DNA of 64,000 bases. It comes from a virus. Shown piece by piece: positions 9,723-61,465 of this stretch; positions within the stretch are counted from its first letter, which is position 1, and each line of letters begins with the position of its first letter. Where the stretch lies: positions 1 to 64,000 of the IMG/VR virus record IMGVR_UViG_3300044614_000912. One strand, written 5' to 3'. The translations under genes were made by a program, and so were the position numbers. A model generated the notes under the pieces. That model did no database searches and was not told where the DNA came from. It saw only the letters and a program-made list of their open reading frames with translations.

Positions 9723-10077
9723 GGGGGCGTAACGGTATCGATTGGATATAGAAAATTATATTAGCAAGTAGTGGTTGATCGACCGGCCACTTTAAAAGTC
9801 GATTAAACGCTTTAACTGGCGAAACTCAGTTAGCTCTCGCTGCCTAATAAAAACGGGCAGTGACGGATTGCGATTGCGAATGAGGGTAGCGATCAAAAAT
9901 CCGTTGTCAAATCCCTCTGCACTTACAATGCCCAGCGGGTTGTAGGTTAAGAGCAGCTGGTAAGACATAGCAAATCTTGTTTGCTCTATAGCTATGTTTA
10001 ACTCATGAGCAAAATAAACTTGTAGAAGATGTAATTAGACATATCGCAAGACAGGGGTTCGACTCCCCTCGCCTCCA
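9723..10077 (+). ncRNA. ssrA: Transfer-messenger RNA (tmRNA)
   Basis: Phage-encoded ribosome-rescue RNA. The 5' end GGGGGCG pairs with the 3' end CGCCTCC (one G-U pair), T arm GGGG-TTCGACT-CCCC lies 5' of it, and the usual GGTATCGA segment follows the acceptor strand. An internal reading frame at 9809-9850 encodes a tag ending LALAA followed by TAATAA, exactly as in bacterial tmRNAs. With GCT at 9809 as resume codon the tag is ALTGETQLALAA. About 355 bases is a normal size. CCA is not encoded (CTA follows the discriminator). It would tag stalled polypeptides for proteolysis and recycle ribosomes, using host SmpB. Confidence 0.92.
9809..9850 (+). other. tmRNA tag-peptide reading frame
   Basis: Twelve codons from GCT reading ALTGETQLALAA and a double stop TAATAA. 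The resume codon is inferred: the frame is fixed by the LALAA end, an alanine codon is the usual first tag codon, and it follows TTAAAC. The C-terminal LALAA is the ClpXP-type degradation signal of bacterial tags. Confidence 0.75.
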
Positions 10078-10082
10078 CTATC

Positions 10083-18226: not shown

Positions 18227-19327
18227 ATGAAAATTGTAAATGATACTAAGTTAGATTTTGATGATGTCTTACTCGTTCCACAGAGATCGCAAGCCGCCTC
18301 AAGGGTCAGTGTGTTGGTCGATAGACAGTTTTCTTTCTATCACTCTAATCGCGTTTGGAATGGCGTTCCAATCATGGCAGCTAATATGGACACAACCGGA
18401 ACGTTTGATATGGCAAAAGCTTTAAACAAGTTTAATATGGTGACTTGTTTGCATAAGCATTATAAGGCAGAGGATTATGCCATGCATCTTGTCGATCCTA
18501 ATAACTACTGGTATAGTATGGGAATTCAGAAAGAAGAAATCTCTAAACTAATAGAGGTTTCTGACCGCTTACAATCTTTCCCAAATCTTTGCATAGATGT
18601 TGCCAATGGTTATACAGATAATTTTGTACATTTCTGTAGGGGTATTAGAGAAATAGTTGGTAAGCACCCAATCATTATGGCTGGTAATGTATGCACACCA
18701 GAAATGGTGCAAGAATTGATTCTTCACGGTGGAGTAGATATTGTTAAGGTTGGAATTGGTCCCGGTTCAGCATGTACAACAAGATTAAAAACTGGCGTTG
18801 GATATCCACAACTTTCTGCAATTGCCGAATGTTCTCATGCCGCACACGGATTAAAAAGTGGAGACAAGCACCTAGGATTGATTTGTGCGGACGGTGGATG
18901 TAGAACACCATCAGATGTTGTAAAGGCATTTGCGGCTAACACAGACTTCGTTATGCTTGGTGGAATGTTGGCTGGCACAGAGCAATGCGAAGGAGAATGG
19001 GAATACGAATATCGAATGAAGAGTGGCGGTTGGCAACCAATCGATCCTCAGTACGATGACGTAGAAAAGCGAAAAACAAAGTTAACATTTTATGGAATGA
19101 GTTCTCACAAGGCTCAAGAAAAATACGGTGGTATTAAAAATTATAGAGCAAGCGAAGGCAGAGTAGTGACTGTGCCTTACAAGGGCGATGCTTCTATAAT
19201 ATTACAGGACATATTAGGTGGCATTAGAAGTGCTTGTGCTTATGTTGGTGCATCTTCTCTTAAAGATTTGCCAAAATGTGCAGAGTTCATAAAAGTAAAT
19301 CGCGTTCATTTTGATAGGAGTGTTTGA
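18227..19327 (+). CDS. guaC: GMP reductase
   Basis: Converts GMP to IMP with NADPH. The 366-residue protein follows E. coli GuaC closely: DFDDVLLVPQRS start, VPIMAANMDTTGTFDMA, the catalytic loop GIGPGSACTTRLKTGVGYPQ with the active cysteine, CADGGCRTPSDV, FVMLGGMLAGTE, FYGMSSHKAQEKYGG and GGIRSACAYVGA. No CBS domains, and the GuaC-type features fit better than IMP dehydrogenase. A purine-interconversion enzyme is unusual in a phage; it may rebalance G and A nucleotides or feed base modification. TGATG coupling to the methyltransferase. Confidence 0.93.
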   Translation: MKIVNDTKLDFDDVLLVPQRSQAASRVSVLVDRQFSFYHSNRVWNGVPIMAANMDTTGTFDMAKALNKFNMVTCLHKHYKAEDYAMHLVDPNNYWYSMGIQKEEISKLIEVSDRLQSFPNLCIDVANGYTDNFVHFCRGIREIVGKHPIIMAGNVCTPEMVQELILHGGVDIVKVGIGPGSACTTRLKTGVGYPQLSAIAECSHAAHGLKSGDKHLGLICADGGCRTPSDVVKAFAANTDFVMLGGMLAGTEQCEGEWEYEYRMKSGGWQPIDPQYDDVEKRKTKLTFYGMSSHKAQEKYGGIKNYRASEGRVVTVPYKGDASIILQDILGGIRSACAYVGASSLKDLPKCAEFIKVNRVHFDRSV

Positions 19328-32526: not shown

Positions 32527-34233
32527 ATGAGTATTAAACGAATAAAAGACTTTCCAGATGGAAGCGGTTCATTGTCCAATGACGATATTATGTTATTTAT
32601 GGATAGCCCATCTGGTAGTGGAGTTACTAAAAAAATCAGTCTTAGTCAATTAGCTACTGTTATCGGCGGTGGAGGTGGAAGTTCATTTGATCAAGATTTG
32701 AATACAACAGATACCCCTACATTTGTTGGTGTAAATCTATCAAACGGAACCACTCTAGCTCAAGGAACTTTTGACAACTCAACTGGTGGTCAAAGTGGTA
32801 TCAGTTTGAATTGTTATGTTGGCTATGAGTTGAATTGGCAAGGCGGTCATTTAAAAAGTACCACTGATGGAGGCTCAACAGCAGCTAACATTTGGTGTGA
32901 TTCTTCATTAGAATTTCCCGGCGTCGGGACTTCTAACATGGAAGTCGGTGCCAAAGGATTAACTTTTCCAGACGGAAGCATCCAAGTAACATCTAGCGAT
33001 CCTATGACAAAAGGACCACAACAAAACCCACTTGGCATGGCCCGAATTGTAACAATTAGCACTAGCGAATTTGTTGCATACGTAAAATCTACAACCGGAT
33101 ATATTGGTGTCCGCTCATGGGATGGAACTTTTACTCTATTTGGCGACGGTTCCGACATTACTCATTACATTACATTAAGTATTCCATTAGAAGGTAGCTG
33201 GAGTGGTCCTTCTCCTAAAGAAATTTTTATTTGGAGTACTGATAGTAGCGGTCTAAGCCAAGACGGCGACTTAACATGGATAAATGTTAGCAATTCAAAT
33301 AATAAGGTTACTGCTCTAGACATTAGTGGCTTGAATGCACTTACTAATTTATATTGCGCTAATAACCTTCTCACATCGCTCAATCTCAGCGGATTGACAG
33401 CGCTTACTCGTCTAGAATGCAATAATAATTTTCTTACCGCATTGGATATTAGCGGTCTGACAGCATTAGATACTGTATTTTGTTATAACAACTCAATTAT
33501 TACTAGATTGAATGCGAAGGGAGCCACATCGCTGACCCATTTGCGTTGTTATAATAATTCCATCACATCGTTAGAACTTAGCGGAACAGCTTTAGAAATT
33601 CTATTGACCGATAGTAATGCCCTTGTCGAGTTAGATGTTAGTGAATTAACAACATTAGAGCAATTGTCATGTAATAATAATTCTCTTACCTCATTAAATG
33701 TAAGCGGATTAACATCACTAGGTTATTTAGACTGTTCTAATAATTCTCTCGCCACACTGAATGTCGGTGGATTGACAGTATTAGGTATTTTAAATTGCTC
33801 TAACAATTCCATTACTACATTGAATGTTAGTGGATTAACGTCACTAAGTAACTTAAATTGTTCAGATAATTCAATAACATCTATAAATGCAAGCGGGGCA
33901 ACTTCATTGAGTAGTCTAAATTGTGCTAATAATTTTATCGTTTCTCTAGACGTTAGCGGATTTACAGCGTTAACGACTCTATATTGTTCGGATAATTCCC
34001 TTACTTCGTTACGTGCTACTGGTGTTGCACTTGGAGGGTCTTCGGGCTATACATATGGATTGATTTATGGAGGAGATATAAGCGATAATTCTTTATCTGC
34101 GGGAGCTTTGAATCAATTCTATTCCGACCTTGCTTCAAGTGCTGGCTTTTTGAATGTTGCTAACAATCCCGGTACAAGTAGTGATAACCCCACTATTGCA
34201 ACAGCCAAGGGTTATACTGTCTACGGAAGTTAA
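32527..34233 (+). CDS. Leucine-rich-repeat tail protein
   Basis: A 568-residue protein. The N-terminal DFPDGSGSLSNDDIMLFMDS...TKKISLSQL module is shared with the protein at 35143 and probably attaches it to the tail. Residues about 60-230 are shaft-like with FPDGSIQVTSSD. Residues about 265-500 hold eleven leucine-rich repeats of about 21 residues each, of the form LxCxNNSLTxLxxSGLTxL, as in bacterial surface LRRs. LRRs usually bind proteins, so this is a likely host-recognition element. Confidence 0.87.
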   Translation: MSIKRIKDFPDGSGSLSNDDIMLFMDSPSGSGVTKKISLSQLATVIGGGGGSSFDQDLNTTDTPTFVGVNLSNGTTLAQGTFDNSTGGQSGISLNCYVGYELNWQGGHLKSTTDGGSTAANIWCDSSLEFPGVGTSNMEVGAKGLTFPDGSIQVTSSDPMTKGPQQNPLGMARIVTISTSEFVAYVKSTTGYIGVRSWDGTFTLFGDGSDITHYITLSIPLEGSWSGPSPKEIFIWSTDSSGLSQDGDLTWINVSNSNNKVTALDISGLNALTNLYCANNLLTSLNLSGLTALTRLECNNNFLTALDISGLTALDTVFCYNNSIITRLNAKGATSLTHLRCYNNSITSLELSGTALEILLTDSNALVELDVSELTTLEQLSCNNNSLTSLNVSGLTSLGYLDCSNNSLATLNVGGLTVLGILNCSNNSITTLNVSGLTSLSNLNCSDNSITSINASGATSLSSLNCANNFIVSLDVSGFTALTTLYCSDNSLTSLRATGVALGGSSGYTYGLIYGGDISDNSLSAGALNQFYSDLASSAGFLNVANNPGTSSDNPTIATAKGYTVYGS

Positions 34234-54485: not shown

Positions 54486-54488
54486 TTG

Positions 54489-55010
54489 ATGGACAAGATT
54501 AAAAATTTACTTCAAGATAAAACTGAATCACAAGTTGTTGAAGGATATTCCAATCAGCAAGTCATTGACTTAATCAAACAATCACTAAATGTTCACTGGC
54601 AACAATGCACAGCACTAACAGCACAAGCCGTTCATTTAGAGCGATGGGGATATACGAAATTAGCTAATATCATTAAAGCAGATGCTGAACAAGAGCATGA
54701 ACATGCCGCTATTAATATCGCTAGGCTAGAATTTTTCGATGTAGATTATCAGCCTATTACAATTTCTCAACCCGCGTGGACTAGACACAACATGGTTGCT
54801 ATGCTACAATATAATTTAGACTCTGTAAGACAAGCGGCTACTGTAGAAAGAGCCACAATTGTAGCCGCAAGAGCGGTTGGCGATGAAATGACTGCTAATT
54901 CTATGATTCCTCTTCTTCAAGGTAGTGAAGATGGTATCAAACTTTACGAAGCCTATTTAAAGATGATTGAAGAAATGGGATTAGACAATTTTCTATCTAT
55001 TCAAGTTTAA
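54489..55010 (+). CDS. Bacterioferritin-like protein, ferroxidase site degraded
   Basis: A 173-residue four-helix-bundle protein from the ATG at 54489. It aligns by eye with bacterioferritin: WGYTKLANIIKADAEQEHEHA with [21 protein letters not shown], and the C-terminal MGLDNFLSIQV with MGLQNYLQAQI. The E-x-x-H pair (E51/H54 in E. coli) is kept, but E18 appears as His, E94 as Val and the E127/H130 positions as Ser and Gly. It may bind metal without normal ferroxidase activity, or be reused for another role. A terminator follows. Confidence 0.76.
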   Translation: MDKIKNLLQDKTESQVVEGYSNQQVIDLIKQSLNVHWQQCTALTAQAVHLERWGYTKLANIIKADAEQEHEHAAINIARLEFFDVDYQPITISQPAWTRHNMVAMLQYNLDSVRQAATVERATIVAARAVGDEMTANSMIPLLQGSEDGIKLYEAYLKMIEEMGLDNFLSIQV

Positions 55011-55029
55011 TTGATTTTTAAGCACAGAG

Positions 55030-55064
55030 AACATTGATGGGTTCAAGCCCATCAGTGTTTTCTT
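55030..55064 (+). terminator. Rho-independent terminator
   Basis: AACATTGATGGG (55030-55041), six-base loop, CCCATCAGTGTT (55048-55059) with one G-U pair, then TTCTT. Strong twelve-base-pair stem ending the upstream operon. Confidence 0.87.
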
Positions 55065-55077
55065 GCGTGTTGAGCGT

Positions 55078-55083
55078 TATAAT
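55078..55083 (+). promoter_or_regulatory. Possible -10 element before split polymerase operon
   Basis: TATAAT fourteen bases after the terminator and 33 bases before the dnaE-N ATG. The -35 position falls in the terminator stem and is poor (TGTTTT at 16-base spacing). A promoter is expected here because the terminator lies upstream. Confidence 0.4.
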
Positions 55084-55115
55084 ACTTTGATTGAGTCTCT
55101 AGTTGCGAGGATAAT

Positions 55116-56720
55116 ATGTCTTGGTTCCCTTTGAAAAATTACACACACTATAGTCTATTAAAGGGCTATTCTAAGCCCGACGAATTAGCTGCAAAATGCA
55201 AGGCTAACGGTTATAAGGCGTGTGGTATCTGTGATTATAAAACTATTTCTGGCTCTGTTGCTTTCTTTCAAGCTTGTAAAAAAGCTGGCATAAAGCCAAT
55301 CATAGGTTGCTCGTTCGATAACTTTGCTTTATTTGCTAAGAACAAATCTGGATGGCATGACTTAATAGAACTAGTATCATCACTAGATGATAATGATAAT
55401 GTGCCAGATGCTACACTCTCAAAAGTTCTTAAGAGAGATAATCTAATTAAGCTTTCTGACGCTCCTTCAAAGTCTATGCCTATTAGTTACTATACTAATA
55501 GAGAGGACGCAAAGCTACACAGAATATTGCTTTGTTCAGATATGAAAACAACCTTGCCGAAGGTTCTAAAAAGCATTAAGAGCGATAAAGCTGAACTATC
55601 CAAAGATCACGCCGATAAAGTAAAGTATTTTTTGAATGATGCTCTTTATGTCTTTAGTAATGATGAATCGAAAGATTTACCGCATGATGAATTAGATAAG
55701 ATTTATTCACAGTGTGAAGATTATGATATTCTTAATAAGCCAATGCTTCCTAAATTTGAGTGTCCCAACGGTCAAACAGAAGAAGATTATCTAAAAGAAC
55801 TTTGTAGGGATGGCTGGAAGAATCTATTGATGGCAAAGGGTAAGGTGTCAAAGGATGAAGATAAGCAGAAATATCTTGATAGATTCAAAGAAGAGTTTGA
55901 TGTTATTAAGGATGCTAATCTATTCGGATATTTCCTCATTGTGCGAGATATCATTAATTATGTGAACAATCAAGGCTGGCTTTCTGGTCCCGGTCGAGGA
56001 TCAGCGGCTGGGTGTTTAATCTCTTATCTTGTAGGTATTACCAAGATCGATCCGCTAGAATTTGACCTTCTGTTCGCAAGATTCTACAACGCTGGCAGAA
56101 ACAGTGCCGATCATATATCTCTACCAGATATTGATATGGACGTTCCCGGCAAACATAGGGATGCAATCATCGGATATATCAAAGATAAATACGGACATGA
56201 TCGCGTTAGCCAAATGTTAACGTTCGGAAGACTTCAAGGGAAGAGTGCCATTAAGGAAGTATTGCGAATTAATGAAGCCTGCTCTTTTGCAGAGATGAAT
56301 GCTATAAGTAACTGTATTCCAGATGAGGCTAAGATTTCTGATCAATTGGCAGAAATGGATGATGAAGACCGATCCATCATCAGATGGGCATTGATTAATA
56401 ATGCCGATGAACTACGAGACTTTTGCAGGATAAATGATAACGGAGAACTGGAAGGAGAATACGCAGACTATTTCGATCAAGCTATCAAGATAGAGGGTAC
56501 ATTTAAAACACAGGGTAAACATGCTGCTGGAGTAGTTATTTCAGCAGAACCATTGTGTAAAGTCTGCCCCATGGTAAAACAAAAGGGTTCTCACGAAAAG
56601 ATTGCCGGTTTAGAAATGACTGACCTAGAAGCACTAGGACATGTAAAATTCGATGTGCTAGGTATCAATTTGCTAGATAAGATTATGAAGATACAGGAGT
56701 TGCAGCATGATACAGTTTGA
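55116..56720 (+). CDS. DNA polymerase III alpha, N-terminal part (PHP, palm, thumb)
   Basis: First half of a split C-family polymerase, 534 residues. PHP-type start: THYSLLKGYSKPDELAAKCK, ICDYKTISGSVAFFQACKK, GIKPIIGC. Palm: WLSGPGRGSAAGCLISYLVGI and LPDIDMDV, which holds two catalytic aspartates, then FGRLQGKSAIKEVLRI. The third catalytic Asp is in KFDVLGINLLDKIMKIQEL, only about 20 residues before the stop, and the fingers are missing. They are encoded separately at 57863. The stop overlaps the next gene by 14 bases. Confidence 0.93.
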   Translation: MSWFPLKNYTHYSLLKGYSKPDELAAKCKANGYKACGICDYKTISGSVAFFQACKKAGIKPIIGCSFDNFALFAKNKSGWHDLIELVSSLDDNDNVPDATLSKVLKRDNLIKLSDAPSKSMPISYYTNREDAKLHRILLCSDMKTTLPKVLKSIKSDKAELSKDHADKVKYFLNDALYVFSNDESKDLPHDELDKIYSQCEDYDILNKPMLPKFECPNGQTEEDYLKELCRDGWKNLLMAKGKVSKDEDKQKYLDRFKEEFDVIKDANLFGYFLIVRDIINYVNNQGWLSGPGRGSAAGCLISYLVGITKIDPLEFDLLFARFYNAGRNSADHISLPDIDMDVPGKHRDAIIGYIKDKYGHDRVSQMLTFGRLQGKSAIKEVLRINEACSFAEMNAISNCIPDEAKISDQLAEMDDEDRSIIRWALINNADELRDFCRINDNGELEGEYADYFDQAIKIEGTFKTQGKHAAGVVISAEPLCKVCPMVKQKGSHEKIAGLEMTDLEALGHVKFDVLGINLLDKIMKIQELQHDTV

Positions 56721-57192
56721 AGTTACTCAAGACATAATGGATACGGCAATCTCTAAAGCCAAAGAAATGGGAGAGTTGAATAATTCTATCACTATGGGCG
56801 ATGGTAATCTGGCTGGATTTATTGGAGAAGAAATAGTGTGCAGATTTATCAAAGGAACCACAGAAAATACATATGATTATGACATAGTTCGTAACGGTCA
56901 AACATATGACGTTAAAACCAAAAGATGCACTAGTCCACCAAAGCCATTTTATGATTGTTCTGTAGCGGCTTTTAACGTAAAACAGAAGTGTGATAAATAC
57001 GTATTCGTGAGGGTACAGTATAAAAATAATACATACGGACCAGCATGGATTTTAGGATGCAAAGACAAGGCAGAGTATTTCAAGAAAGCGAAAAAGTTAA
57101 ACAAGGGAGAAGTTGATCCTAGCAATAATTTTATTGTAAAAGCTGATTGCTATAATATGAGTATTAACGAATTAGACGCACTGGAGGTTTGA
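56707..57192 (+). CDS. PD-(D/E)XK-fold nuclease-like protein inside the split polymerase
   Basis: One hundred and sixty-one residues. GNLAGFIGEEIVCRFI (Glu) and YDYDIVRNGQTYDVKTKR (D-x-n-D-x-K) give the restriction-endonuclease-type core; FNVKQKCDKYVFVRV follows as the third strand. It sits between the two halves of dnaE, so it may derive from a homing nuclease, but it now overlaps the upstream gene tightly and abuts the exonuclease. Could also process DNA at the fork. Confidence 0.72.
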   Translation: MIQFEVTQDIMDTAISKAKEMGELNNSITMGDGNLAGFIGEEIVCRFIKGTTENTYDYDIVRNGQTYDVKTKRCTSPPKPFYDCSVAAFNVKQKCDKYVFVRVQYKNNTYGPAWILGCKDKAEYFKKAKKLNKGEVDPSNNFIVKADCYNMSINELDALEV

Positions 57193-57873
57193 ATGGCTAA
57201 TAGAGATTTTATTATATTCGATTTTGAAACAGGTTCAAGGAATCCGCATAGAACGCAACCAACACAAATTGCTGCATTAGCATTGGATGGTAGGAATCTA
57301 GCGGTAAAGGGGCAATTCAACAGTGAGATTCAGCCTATATTTGACGATGAAAAAGCTATTTCTCTTGGTCTTGACCCGATAGAAGATGAGGCATTAAAGA
57401 TCACCAACAAAACTAGGGATCAATTATCATCAGCACCATCGCTAAAGTCGGTTTGGTCTAAGTTCACAAAGTTTGTTTCACAATACAATTGGAAAGGCGA
57501 TGCGTTCTTTAATCCTATACCGGTTGGTTTCAACATCATAGGATTCGACTTAATTATCATTGATAGGCTGTGTAAAGAATATGGCCCATATGATGATGAA
57601 CGTAGACAGCAAAAATTATTTAGCAAGGTCTATAAGATTGATATTATGGACAATATATTTACGTGGACAGAAAGTGATCCATCTGTTAGGTCTATCAGCA
57701 TGGACTCATTAAGAGAACGAATGGGACTTAGTAGTGATGGGGCACACGACGCTCTACAAGACGTTAAAGATGAGGCAAATATATTCATCAAACTACTAAA
57801 GACGCACAGAGCGGTATATCAAAACGTTAATTTTGACAAAGCATTTGCAAGCGGGGAATTGTATGTTAAATGA
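57193..57873 (+). CDS. DnaQ-like DEDDh 3'-5' exonuclease
   Basis: Proofreading-type exonuclease, 226 residues. FIIFDFETGSR (Exo I, D and E), PVGFNIIGFDLIIIDRL (Exo II, Asp) and DGAHDALQDVKDEANIF (Exo III, H-x4-D) are all present, so it should be active. Encoded between the two polymerase pieces, it is the obvious epsilon-like partner. ATG immediately after the nuclease stop; its end overlaps the dnaE-C start by 11 bases. Confidence 0.92.
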   Translation: MANRDFIIFDFETGSRNPHRTQPTQIAALALDGRNLAVKGQFNSEIQPIFDDEKAISLGLDPIEDEALKITNKTRDQLSSAPSLKSVWSKFTKFVSQYNWKGDAFFNPIPVGFNIIGFDLIIIDRLCKEYGPYDDERRQQKLFSKVYKIDIMDNIFTWTESDPSVRSISMDSLRERMGLSSDGAHDALQDVKDEANIFIKLLKTHRAVYQNVNFDKAFASGELYVK

Positions 57874-59434
57874 TTTGGATTATAACGATAAGGCCACTTG
57901 GCAACTATTCGCAGAGGGTAAAACTAAGGGTATTTTCCAACTAGAAAGTAATCTTGGTAAATCTTGGGCTAAGAAGTTAGCACCAACCAATATCGAAGAA
58001 TTGTCGGCGCTTATCGCTATTATCCGACCGGGAACGCTCAAGGCTTATGTCGATGGTAAAAGCATGACGCAACACTATGTTGATAGAAAGCACGGGCGAG
58101 AAGAAGTCACGTATCTTCATCCCGCCCTAGAAGACGTTCTCAAAACAACGTATGGCGTTCTTGTGTATCAAGAACAGTCCATGCGTATAGCAGAAAAGAT
58201 TGCCGGATTTAATCTTCAAGAGGCAGACGTTCTTCGTAAAGCTATTGGCAAGAAAAAGGCTGATCTTATGAATGAAGTTAAAAAGTCTTTTATTGCTGGG
58301 GCTGAACGTGTAGGCATAGTCACCAAGGAAGAGGCAGAGCAAATATTCGGATGGATTGAGAAATCGTCTAGATATGCTTTCAACAAGTCACATAGCGTTT
58401 CATATGCGGTTTGTTCATATTGGAGTGCATACTTTAAGGCGCATAATACTTTAGAATTCTTTTTGTCATATCTCTATTATGCTAATGAAAAGCAAGACCC
58501 TCATCAAGAAATATATGAGCTAATATCTGAGGCAAAACTATTTGACATTCAAGTTAAGACCCCAAGCTTGGCTAATTTTGATACCAAGTTCAATATTCAA
58601 AAGAACAAGATATTTTTTGGAATTAAGGATATCAAATCTCTTACCGGTAAAACGGGCGATAAATTGATAGAGGCTATAGGAACATCAGAAAAAGAACTTG
58701 GCAAGAATATTACTAAGTTTACATGGTTAGAAATTCTGCTATTTCTTAGTCCTTTAGTTAGTTCAACAGCGTTTAAGGCACTGGCTTCCATAGGATTCTT
58801 TAGGGGTTTTGCGGATAAAATTACTAGAAATAAAGCCCTATATGACTATGATATTTTTAAGACCTTAACCAAGGCAGAACAAACGTGGATTCAAACCCAT
58901 TACAAAGATAAGAACTGGGGTTCATTTATTGAATGCTTGAAAGACCTAGCACCAACTAAGAAAGAGGGCGGTGGTACAAGCAAAGTTGATAGAAAACAAG
59001 CTATAGAAAATGAAATTCAGCTTTTAATCAATCCGCCATATGACCTAGAAGACGATCCAGCATGGGTTATAGATCAAGAAGTCAAATTCTTAGGTTGTCC
59101 AGTTAGTATGACAAAAGTTGAAACATCAGATACATCCGCTGCTAATACCACATGTAAAGAAATTGTGAATGGTAAAAGGGGCAAAGACTTATGTATAGTA
59201 GCAAACGTACAGCGTGTTTCGGAATACAAAATAACCAAGGGTGAATCCAAGGGGCAAATGATGGCCTTTTTAACAATAGAGGACGATACTTGTATGCTAG
59301 ATAGCGTAATTGTTTTCCCTAAAGTAAAAGAAAAGTACAAGTATGTCTTATATGAAGGTAATAATTTGATATTTTGTGGCTCAGTTGGTGAAAATGATAA
59401 TTCGTTTATAGTAAACCAAATACATGAAGTTTGA
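57863..59434 (+). CDS. DNA polymerase III alpha, C-terminal part (fingers, OB)
   Basis: Second half of the split polymerase, 523 residues from the ATG at 57863 (MLNDLDYNDKATWQLFAEGK) after GGGGAA. Fingers motifs: GIFQLESNLGKSWAKKL, IAIIRPGTLKAYVDG, TTYGVLVYQEQSMRIAEKIAGF, VLRKAIGKKKADLM and SSRYAFNKSHSVSYAV. The C-terminus (LCIVANVQRVSEYKITKGES, TIEDDTCMLDSVIVFP) is an OB fold. It begins where the N-terminal piece ends; no intein sequence is seen at either end. Confidence 0.93.
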   Translation: MLNDLDYNDKATWQLFAEGKTKGIFQLESNLGKSWAKKLAPTNIEELSALIAIIRPGTLKAYVDGKSMTQHYVDRKHGREEVTYLHPALEDVLKTTYGVLVYQEQSMRIAEKIAGFNLQEADVLRKAIGKKKADLMNEVKKSFIAGAERVGIVTKEEAEQIFGWIEKSSRYAFNKSHSVSYAVCSYWSAYFKAHNTLEFFLSYLYYANEKQDPHQEIYELISEAKLFDIQVKTPSLANFDTKFNIQKNKIFFGIKDIKSLTGKTGDKLIEAIGTSEKELGKNITKFTWLEILLFLSPLVSSTAFKALASIGFFRGFADKITRNKALYDYDIFKTLTKAEQTWIQTHYKDKNWGSFIECLKDLAPTKKEGGGTSKVDRKQAIENEIQLLINPPYDLEDDPAWVIDQEVKFLGCPVSMTKVETSDTSAANTTCKEIVNGKRGKDLCIVANVQRVSEYKITKGESKGQMMAFLTIEDDTCMLDSVIVFPKVKEKYKYVLYEGNNLIFCGSVGENDNSFIVNQIHEV

Positions 59435-59489
59435 GTGTGTTTTTTTAACATGTTCTTGCTAACATATTAGGATCAAGGAGATTAGATAC

Positions 59490-59801
59490 ATGAATATGTG
59501 TTCTTTTACTGGATATTTGGTAGAAAATCCAAGAATATCCGTTATTGACGATGTTGTAAAAGCAGAATTTATGATGGTGGTTTATACTTATCGTAGAACT
59601 AAAAGTGGCGAGAAGAATAGAATACCAACATATCTATATTGTGAAGCGTGGCACACCGGTGCCGAGACTCTAGAAAAGTATGCTACTAAAGGTACTAAAT
59701 TAAACGTATTAGCGTCAGCTAAAAATGTTTCCAAGGATAATCGATCAGTGATTTTCAGAATCAATGAGTTCGATTTTTGTCATCAAGACTTTGAAGACTA
59801 A
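59490..59801 (+). CDS. Single-stranded DNA-binding protein-like (second copy)
   Basis: One hundred and three residues, OB fold: MCSFTGYLVENPRISVIDDVVKAEFMMVVYTYRR, TYLYCEAWHTGAETLEKYATKGTKLNV. Similar to bacterial SSB but diverged and lacking an acidic tail. Follows the polymerase operon with AAGGAGA. The upstream gap contains GTGTTTTTTTAAC, as before 20851. Two SSBs suggest distinct roles in replication and recombination. Confidence 0.8.
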   Translation: MNMCSFTGYLVENPRISVIDDVVKAEFMMVVYTYRRTKSGEKNRIPTYLYCEAWHTGAETLEKYATKGTKLNVLASAKNVSKDNRSVIFRINEFDFCHQDFED

Positions 59802-59803
59802 TA

Positions 59804-61465
59804 ATGAGAAAAAAACGAATATTATTCTGTAGCGAAGCTACATTTTTAAATACTGGTTATGCTACATACACCAGAGAAATTCTAAACTATTTGCACAGCA
59901 CTGGCAAATATGAATTGGCAGAATTAGCAGCATATGGCGAAAGGAATGACCCTAGAGCGTCCAACATACCTTGGAAGTTTTATGGCGTTGTACCTCCGAA
60001 GGATGCATCAGAAGAAGAAAAGGCACAGTATGCCAATAATCCATTAGCACAATTTGGCGAATGGATATTTGAGCCTGTCTGCCTAGATTTTCAGCCAGAT
60101 ATAGTCTGCGATATACGAGACTTCTGGATGTTAGATTTTGCTGAAAGATCACCATATAGGAAGTTCTTCAAGTGGTGTATTATGCCTACGGTTGACGCTA
60201 GACCACAGGCTAGACAGTGGATATCAACGTATGAATCAGCCGACGCCTGCCTTACATATTCAGAATGGGCTGGAGAAGTTCTAAAAGAACAATCTGGCGG
60301 TAAAATCAAATATCTTGGTATTGCACCGCCATCCGCTCATGCTGCTTATCAACCAATAGAAGATAAAGCTGGACTAAGAGCAGCACTTGGTATTGATCCA
60401 GATGCCAAAATTATTGGCACAGTAATGCGAAATCAAAGACGCAAACTGTACCCAGATTTATTCCAAGCTTTTAGAATTCTTTTAGATACAGTCGAAGATA
60501 GCTCCAATTACTATCTATATTGTCATACTAGTTATCCAGATTTAGGATGGGATATTCCAGAATTATTACAAGAATATCGACTATCTTCTAAGGTTCTATT
60601 TACTTACATGTGCGGTCAAACCAATAGACCGTTCGTGTCCTTATTTAAGGGTGCTATTACGCAATCTCCGTATACTGGACAATATGGGGCTTCTCTATCA
60701 AATGTTAAAAATGGCGTAGAGTATGAAGACCTATCAAAGATAATCAATCTATTCGATATATACGTTCAGTATGCAAACTGTGAGGGGTTCGGTCTACCTC
60801 AAGTAGAGGCAGCGGCTTGTGGAATACCCGTAATGTCTACTGACTATTCTGCTATGGAAAGTGTTGTAAGAAATCTTGGCGGTATACCCATCAAGCCAAA
60901 AGCTCTATACAAAGAATTAGAAACTGGCTGTTTAAGAGCGGTTCCAGACAATGAACTGGCGGCACAAAAGCTCATTGAATTTTTTAATAAGCCTAGCGGC
61001 ATTAGAAAAAGGATAGGTTTTGAGACTAGACAATCATTTCTAAAGCATTACCAGTGGGACAAGAGCGGAAAGGCTTGGGAGGATTATTTTGATAGCGTAG
61101 ATATTTTACCAGAAGATTTGACATGGAAATCTCCACCTAGAATATTTACTCCAGAACCAAAGCCAGAACAATTACCACCAAATGTTAGTCATAAAGATTT
61201 AGCAAGATGGCTTATTACAAAAGTTTTATGTGAGCCAGATAAAGTTAATAGCTTTATGGAGGCTAGGCTAATCAGAGACTTGATGTATAAAGCCACAACA
61301 TCTACAACCGGTGGAATGTATTTTAATGAAAGTTCGGCGGCGTTTGATGGCAAACAAGGTAGAATGCCATTTGATCTAAACACAGCGTATCAGCATATGT
61401 CTAATCTATGTCAAAGAAGAAATTTTTGGGAACACAAAAGAGCAGAGGCATTTAAACTCATATGA
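59804..61465 (+). CDS. Glycosyltransferase, GT4/GT-B fold, long form
   Basis: A 553-residue transferase. N-terminal RILFCSEATFLNTGYATYTREIL, central LTYSEWAGEVLKEQSGGKIKYLG, IGTVMRNQRRKLYPDLFQAF and donor site YANCEGFGLPQVEAAACGIPVMSTDYSAM. A C-terminal extension (about residues 440-553) is extra relative to typical GT4 enzymes. First of three transferases in a row at the right edge; ATGA coupling to the next. Confidence 0.88.
   Translation: MRKKRILFCSEATFLNTGYATYTREILNYLHSTGKYELAELAAYGERNDPRASNIPWKFYGVVPPKDASEEEKAQYANNPLAQFGEWIFEPVCLDFQPDIVCDIRDFWMLDFAERSPYRKFFKWCIMPTVDARPQARQWISTYESADACLTYSEWAGEVLKEQSGGKIKYLGIAPPSAHAAYQPIEDKAGLRAALGIDPDAKIIGTVMRNQRRKLYPDLFQAFRILLDTVEDSSNYYLYCHTSYPDLGWDIPELLQEYRLSSKVLFTYMCGQTNRPFVSLFKGAITQSPYTGQYGASLSNVKNGVEYEDLSKIINLFDIYVQYANCEGFGLPQVEAAACGIPVMSTDYSAMESVVRNLGGIPIKPKALYKELETGCLRAVPDNELAAQKLIEFFNKPSGIRKRIGFETRQSFLKHYQWDKSGKAWEDYFDSVDILPEDLTWKSPPRIFTPEPKPEQLPPNVSHKDLARWLITKVLCEPDKVNSFMEARLIRDLMYKATTSTTGGMYFNESSAAFDGKQGRMPFDLNTAYQHMSNLCQRRNFWEHKRAEAFKLI

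Follow-up and report, generated by a model that had tools for sequence, protein, structure and literature searches.

A phage DNA polymerase III alpha gene divided at the palm/fingers linker, with a DnaQ-like exonuclease encoded between the halves

We describe here a replication locus in which the gene for a DnaE-type (C-family) DNA polymerase is divided into two open reading frames (ORFs). It lies in positions 1 to 64,000 (the window, the whole stretch of DNA that we analysed) of IMG/VR record IMGVR_UViG_3300044614_000912, a record of 132,557 bp from an uncultivated phage. On the plus strand, genes for a DnaB-like helicase, a primase, a deoxynucleoside monophosphate kinase and a PD-(D/E)XK exonuclease are followed, some genes later, by the N-terminal half of the polymerase (N-half), a 161-residue ORF, a DnaQ-like exonuclease, the C-terminal half (C-half) and a single-stranded DNA-binding protein (SSB). 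A preliminary description, made from the letters of the window, had read the two halves correctly; it had overlooked the exonuclease, the 161-residue ORF, a sister clade in which the gene is broken elsewhere, and the split inteins of some relatives. The features of the locus are the following.

55116..56720, plus strand: N-half of a DnaE-type polymerase, 534 residues, with PHP, thumb and palm (Pfam, PDB alignment, AlphaFold2 (AF2), Foldseek)
56127-56129, 56133-56135 and 56652-56654, plus strand: codons of the catalytic aspartates D338, D340 and D513
56667..56720, plus strand: end of the N-half, a terminal helix (residues 518-533) past the catalytic strand, then the stop codon (sequence, secondary structure of the model, tail-length survey)
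56707..57192, plus strand: accessory ORF, 161 residues (PD-(D/E)XK-like motifs by eye)
57193..57873, plus strand: DnaQ/RNase T-like 3'-5' exonuclease, 226 residues (PF00929, 2.5e-11; PHROG 192, 'DNA polymerase exonuclease subunit')
57863..59434, plus strand: C-half of a DnaE-type polymerase, 523 residues, with fingers, helical/HhH region and OB fold (PF17657, PDB alignment, AF2); start codon ATG at 57863, with an 11-nt overlap with the exonuclease stop, or alternatively TTG at 57833
59490..59801, plus strand: SSB (PF00436, 7.9e-6)

The N-half matches PHP (PF02811) and the whole of DNA_pol3_alpha (PF07733, 1-260 of 260), and its three catalytic aspartates are invariant across the family. The C-half matches the fingers family PF17657 from position 22 (22-164 of 166), and NF004226 over 584-1052. 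On PHROG 405, which represents full-length phage DnaE, the N-half ends at 613 and the C-half covers 623-1055. Alignment with PDB structures carries the N-half to residue 564 of E. coli DnaE, with 12 more residues past that point, and places residue 7 of the C-half at E. coli residue 591 (in Taq DnaE the C-half aligns from 648). The gap against E. coli DnaE falls at about residues 577-584, in the palm-to-fingers linker, where about 8 residues are absent; the linker of the concatenated halves is as long as that of intact phage enzymes, with 0 residues missing against the intact Moorella phage DnaE, and the earlier statement that nothing is lost at the junction holds in this sense. The N-half stops 21 residues past the third catalytic aspartate, in a stretch that AlphaFold models mostly as one terminal helix and that bears a conserved G-I-x-x-L-D-K-x-M, and the C-half starts a few residues ahead of the first fingers helix. 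The break sits in an exposed linker past the palm's last catalytic strand. At its other end the C-half finishes after the OB fold, and the tau-binding C-terminal domain of E. coli DnaE is missing.

The predicted structures agree with this division. The AF2 model of the N-half (pLDDT, the per-residue confidence, 87.5; pTM, the predicted template modelling score, 0.86) retrieved DnaE chains in Foldseek with E down to 5.5e-32, that of the C-half (pLDDT 83.7) retrieved DnaE over about 540 columns at E 3.5e-22, and the two single-chain models covered complementary parts of the same DnaE structures. The least confident stretches of the C-half model, residues 60-81 and 171-175 (the FNKSH region), are probably, from their place in the fingers, the faces that would meet the palm. 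Domain order, catalytic residues and linker position are those of E. coli DnaE1, Taq DnaE and the intact DnaE of Moorella phage MTATph1, at 25-36% identity. By every sequence feature tested, the halves together are predicted to make up a C-family polymerase of the DnaE type, except that they are two chains.

Searches of viral contigs and of GTDB genome contigs (loci are designated by L and a number) yielded 219 loci with all three genes, which hold 158 distinct C-half sequences. The order N-half, exonuclease, C-half was kept in all 219, with no two of the genes fused in any, and so uniform an arrangement in homologous loci excludes chance; the known DnaE members that we examined are, in contrast, single polypeptides. 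The SSB gene comes next after the C-half in nearly all relatives. In trees a branch with strong support (Shimodaira-Hasegawa-like approximate likelihood-ratio test (SH-aLRT) 99-100) separates the split sequences from the intact DnaE of phages and bacteria, and the palm/fingers split appears to be a fixed trait of the window clade with one origin. Pairwise distances across 62 genomes correlate at 0.927 between the halves, 0.933 between N-half and exonuclease and 0.957 between C-half and exonuclease. Against the nearest relative, L082, the ratio of nonsynonymous to synonymous substitution (dN/dS) is 0.043 for the N-half, 0.015 for the C-half and 0.011 for the exonuclease, whose dS is near saturation; such values indicate strong purifying selection on both halves. 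A sequencing or assembly artefact that merged unrelated loci, which had been raised as a way in which the split might be spurious, is ruled out by about 200 independent contigs, among them contigs of metagenome-assembled genomes (MAGs), that share the split, by the low dN/dS of the halves (0.015-0.043) and by distances that co-vary (r 0.93-0.96).

One could still suppose that the split polymerase is decaying and that a host polymerase replicates the phage. Split genes often mark pseudogenes, and the window subclade has a shortened PHP domain (55116-55460) with degraded metal-ligand motifs (LKNYTHYS, CDYKTI); the PHP motifs LHxHS/LHLHT and TDHG are retained in relatives of the L048 and L130 types. 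Decay is nevertheless extremely improbable given the purifying selection on both halves, the invariant catalytic residues, and a long history in which the frames have stayed open in about 219 loci and their order with the exonuclease and SSB has been preserved.

Nothing that would rejoin the halves was found at the break, as the preliminary description had noted for intein residues. The N-half tails run 18-41 residues past the catalytic aspartate in 151 sequences, are too short for an intein N-domain and have no intein-like ends; the C-half heads (20-62 residues) are likewise free of intein-like features, with HN before C, S or T in 0 of 156 sequences. An Rfam scan of 54800-59900 returned no relevant intron or catalytic RNA at E<=5, and the 1.1-kb gap between the halves in the window is taken up by two overlapping coding genes. 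In relatives without the accessory gene, the three reading frames run into one another with overlaps of a few bases (exonuclease and C-half in 76 of 139 loci), which leaves no room for an intron.

Inteins can be recognised in this family when they are present. In five relatives the N-half is broken further, at GPGRG/SAAG, by a split intein (L032, 5100-5660; L034, 4370-5620; L053, 5850-6320; L061, 5020-6360; L065, 5050-6400), that of L061 matching TIGR01445 at 1e-9 and Intein_splicing at 9.8e-10. Together with the palm/fingers break, this leaves dnaE in three coding pieces. In fractured genes a host gene is divided with other genes between its parts, and split inteins are needed; some of these relatives show that layout at GPGRG/S, where a nuclease-like ORF separates the two parts of the intein, whereas the window has no split intein. 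The DnaE gene family evidently hosts such elements, since Jayan and SPbeta-like phages also seem to carry introns, at PDIDMD, and these cases are what could make one suspect that the halves are rejoined through a hidden split intein, a group I or II intron or trans-splicing. We judge rejoining very unlikely, because the ends are clean in about 150 sequences, no Rfam intron lies around the junction at a cutoff as loose as E 5, and the gap is wholly coding, with genes overlapping directly in relatives that carry no extra gene. At the palm/fingers break itself, the survey of ends and the Rfam scan showed no hidden intein or intron.

The exonuclease, with DEDDh motifs FDFETGS and HDALQDVKD, lies between the halves throughout the window clade and is a candidate proofreading subunit. 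The proofreading subunit of E. coli binds the PHP domain (PMC3919608), and with the PHP metal motifs degraded in the window subclade a separate proofreader would be expected. The 161-residue ORF is an accessory gene and not part of the polymerase. Its PD-(D/E)XK-like motifs (GE...YDYDI...D/E-V-K-T-K) were seen by eye, and searches of Pfam, PHROG and PDB gave no match. Homologues share this junction in L038, L119, L120, L123 and L129; in the L130 clade they lie ahead of the N-half, and the family, which L244 and L245 also represent, extends to unrelated phages (Ruegeria phage RpAliso, MW202701). Its absence from most relatives and its occurrence at other places rule it out as the cause of the split. 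Both junctions carry variable extras: HNH-like, endonuclease VII-like and FkbM methyltransferase genes, the 161-residue ORF and other ORFs, including a conserved 60-residue ORF in the L048-type subclade. Genes resembling HNH or endonuclease VII enzymes were found in L012, L016, L022, L047 and L050, and a remnant in L044.

Beyond the window clade, the same break occurs in two further cases. The first, L329 (3099-7533), is a deeper relative whose gap holds an RNase HII gene and a 110-residue ORF, not the exonuclease. A large related clade, reached via L330 (L330 3373-7560; L336-L415), has its dnaE cut between PHP and palm. A degenerate PHP protein, a DnaQ exonuclease and an 860-residue protein with palm, fingers and OB are encoded in this order in all 72 of the loci that could be scored (a handful that lacked one gene in the stretch, or were more distant, were left unscored). 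In two of these loci, L346 and L347, PHP and exonuclease share a single ORF. The window clade, L329 and the PHP-break clade form one group (SH-aLRT 99) that includes no intact dnaE; the position of L329 beside the window clade has weaker support (SH-aLRT 76). The exonucleases of the two clades resemble each other weakly (23%), so that a single insertion that moved and two separate insertions are both possible. Each of the five PHP-break records tested had one palm and no PolA or PolB.

The second case is Rossellomorea phage phiT1 (PV767480), which is complete and cultured, and thus a viable isolate carrying the palm/fingers split. Its gp20 (573 residues) and gp18 (469 residues), annotated merely as two 'DNA polymerase III subunit alpha', are broken at the same linker (L327 3489-6771 = PV767480 9714-12996). 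Like the window, phiT1 has no intein at the break, and no PolA or PolB was found in its genome; it differs in its gap, which holds a 49-residue ORF and no exonuclease, and in its origin. In the tree it falls with the Moorella, KLEB27-3 and Curly phages, all unbroken at this linker, which implies that the palm/fingers linker has been cut at least twice and that the phiT1 split apparently arose independently of that in the window clade. Other candidates proved to be different. The two-ORF polymerase of Staphylococcus phage CF9 is broken in the thumb and is frameshift-like, Jayan and the SPbeta-like phages are interrupted in an intron-like manner at PDIDMD, in KLEB27-3 the break comes after FQIE and is accompanied by an HNH gene, and the apparent split of L199 probably reflects the TGA=Trp code of Mycoplasmataceae.

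The junctional genes also bear on how the split arose. A homing endonuclease may have invaded an intact dnaE, with the exonuclease as a later or co-inserted passenger and with two chains that are tolerated rather than useful. The recurrence of extra genes at the junctions, several of them HNH- or endonuclease VII-like and one a remnant, would fit such an origin, as would the HNH gene that interrupts dnaE nearby in KLEB27-3 and the seg and mob insertions that split gp43 and nrdA in T4-like phages (PMC2988022). The constant occupant of the gap is, however, the exonuclease and not an endonuclease, and the gaps of phiT1 and L329 hold just the ORFs given above. We regard this history as possible and, on balance, doubtful; it concerns origin and is compatible with a polymerase of two chains.

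The phage does not seem to rely on another polymerase. Eleven related records of 132-167 kb had exactly one palm and one fingers domain each, and no family A or B polymerase was found in them, an absence that is suggestive rather than final as the completeness of the records is not established. No second or intact polymerase, which had been named as a possible objection, came to light, and this suggests that the split DnaE is the sole recognised DNA polymerase of the phage.

The best reading, to which we assign a probability of about 0.85, is a two-chain, non-covalently assembled C-family polymerase with a co-translated proofreading subunit. An alpha-N chain (PHP, thumb and palm, with the three catalytic aspartates) and an alpha-C chain (fingers, helical region and OB fold) would assemble non-covalently, and the DnaQ-type exonuclease encoded between them would be the third core member and do the proofreading. 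As the cistrons overlap or abut in many relatives, coupled translation of all three from a single mRNA is probable, and this would promote co-assembly. Physical assembly, polymerase activity, the role of the exonuclease and translational coupling are inferred. The two-chain reading is supported by a full domain set spread over two ORFs, a break in a linker, conservation in every locus of the clade, correlated distances, purifying selection, a single palm and fingers copy in the related records and a confident model of each half. The independent phiT1 split also supports it, and gp43A and gp43B of Aeromonas phage 25, family B chains that co-purify and polymerise DNA (PMC2988022), are a precedent that a split phage polymerase can work. 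The two-subunit polymerase without splicing that was first proposed is thus supported, if incomplete, in that the core probably comprises three cistrons, exonuclease included, and that the split is shared with other phages.

It might be argued that each half is an enzyme in its own right, with the palm protein acting, say, like a primase or a terminal transferase and the fingers-OB protein binding DNA, as they are two proteins and each folds confidently alone in prediction. C-family catalysis, however, requires the fingers for the incoming nucleotide, the full set of polymerase residues is kept, and the halves never occur apart in the loci examined, all of which leaves separate enzymes with next to no probability. 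Several observations do weigh against a two-chain polymerase with its own proofreader. No beta clamp was recognised in the 11 related records, so that a host clamp or some unrecognised protein must supply processivity; the exonuclease might have its role elsewhere; the PHP of the window subclade is shortened and degraded; and the correlated distances of the two halves and the exonuclease are expected from shared descent alone and are not proof of contact. More tentatively, and at a little under even odds, we suggest that in a broad assemblage of phages the C-family replicase has been dismantled more than once into domain-sized cistrons (palm/fingers, PHP/palm), with the proofreading exonuclease cistron inside each broken gene, to give an obligate heterotrimer of alpha-N, exonuclease and alpha-C or of PHP, exonuclease and Pol, in which the exonuclease may hold the pieces together.

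The arrangement differs from the divided polymerases already described. In cyanobacteria (Ssp and Npu) dnaE likewise occupies two genes, and the proteins are joined in trans by a split intein at Y/CFNKS in the fingers. The window break is inteinless and lies about 170 residues upstream of that site, and the C-half keeps FNKSHS intact about 170 residues from its start, in agreement with the preliminary description, which had distinguished the two breaks. A survey of about 2000 bacterial genomes found dnaE divided by split inteins only, bar occasional frameshifted copies (PMC3919608). The gp43A/gp43B polymerases of Aeromonas phages 25 and 44RR are, like that of the window, replicative and split without an intein. 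They differ in being of family B, in their sporadic occurrence and in a gap that holds an endonuclease gene or an untranslated spacer; the window split is of family C, clade-wide, and encloses a proofreading-type exonuclease. In group 2.2 jumbo phages a minimal split Pol III alpha, made of two stand-alone proteins predicted to reassemble, lacks PHP, is encoded by distant genes and stands alongside a PolB (Iyer et al. 2021, PMC7824862), whereas the window polymerase runs in full from PHP to OB, comes from adjacent genes, and is the sole recognised polymerase, with no PolB. Our literature search, mostly outside subscription papers, found only the gp43 and jumbo-phage precedents for a split phage polymerase, and the portions that we consulted of a survey from 2024, which covered 947 phage PolC proteins, do not mention one (PMC11348598).

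The usual view is that a replicative polymerase requires an unbroken catalytic core. Here a C-family enzyme split between palm and fingers seems to serve hundreds of phage genomes. Together with the sister clade divided between PHP and palm and the independent division in phiT1, they provide places, found in nature and open to test, at which a C-family polymerase can be split and, possibly, a two-component replicase for biotechnology. The position of the proofreader gene hints at an order of assembly. As phiT1 was isolated on a culturable host, its split is already accessible to experiment. In automated annotation, genes of this kind would be taken for two polymerases or for fragments.

Some further observations concern relatives of the locus and the phage itself. 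A Cys-containing C-half head of about 30 residues (YxCGCxF...IxLDC) occurs in one subclade (L048, L050, L063, L075 and L246-L325) and is missing in intact DnaE; the CxC head of L329 resembles it. It is possibly a metal-binding docking element that the split has enabled. As a sole query, L075 matched itself only. In L062 (4277-7766) and L064 (5293-7754), DUF1559 prepilin-like and ThyX-like genes lie between exonuclease and C-half; DUF1559 is a family known mainly from Planctomycetes, and the prepilin-like gene is a hint of the host. The split-clade members L148 (VFHP01000007), L149, L151 and L174 come from MAGs named as SAR202, Chitinophagia, Flavobacteriales and Alphaproteobacteria, names that reflect either hosts or mis-binning. 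Many top-scoring INPHARED records named 'Bacteriophage sp.' (MT83xxxx) were left out as phages since they look like fragments of bacterial chromosomes (MT836213 has metabolic neighbours). Elsewhere in the window, the phage encodes a transfer-messenger RNA at 9723-10078 with the tag GETQLALAA, five tRNAs, an inosine monophosphate dehydrogenase-like protein (18227-19327), a leucine-rich-repeat protein (32527-34233) and a ferritin-like protein (54486-55010).

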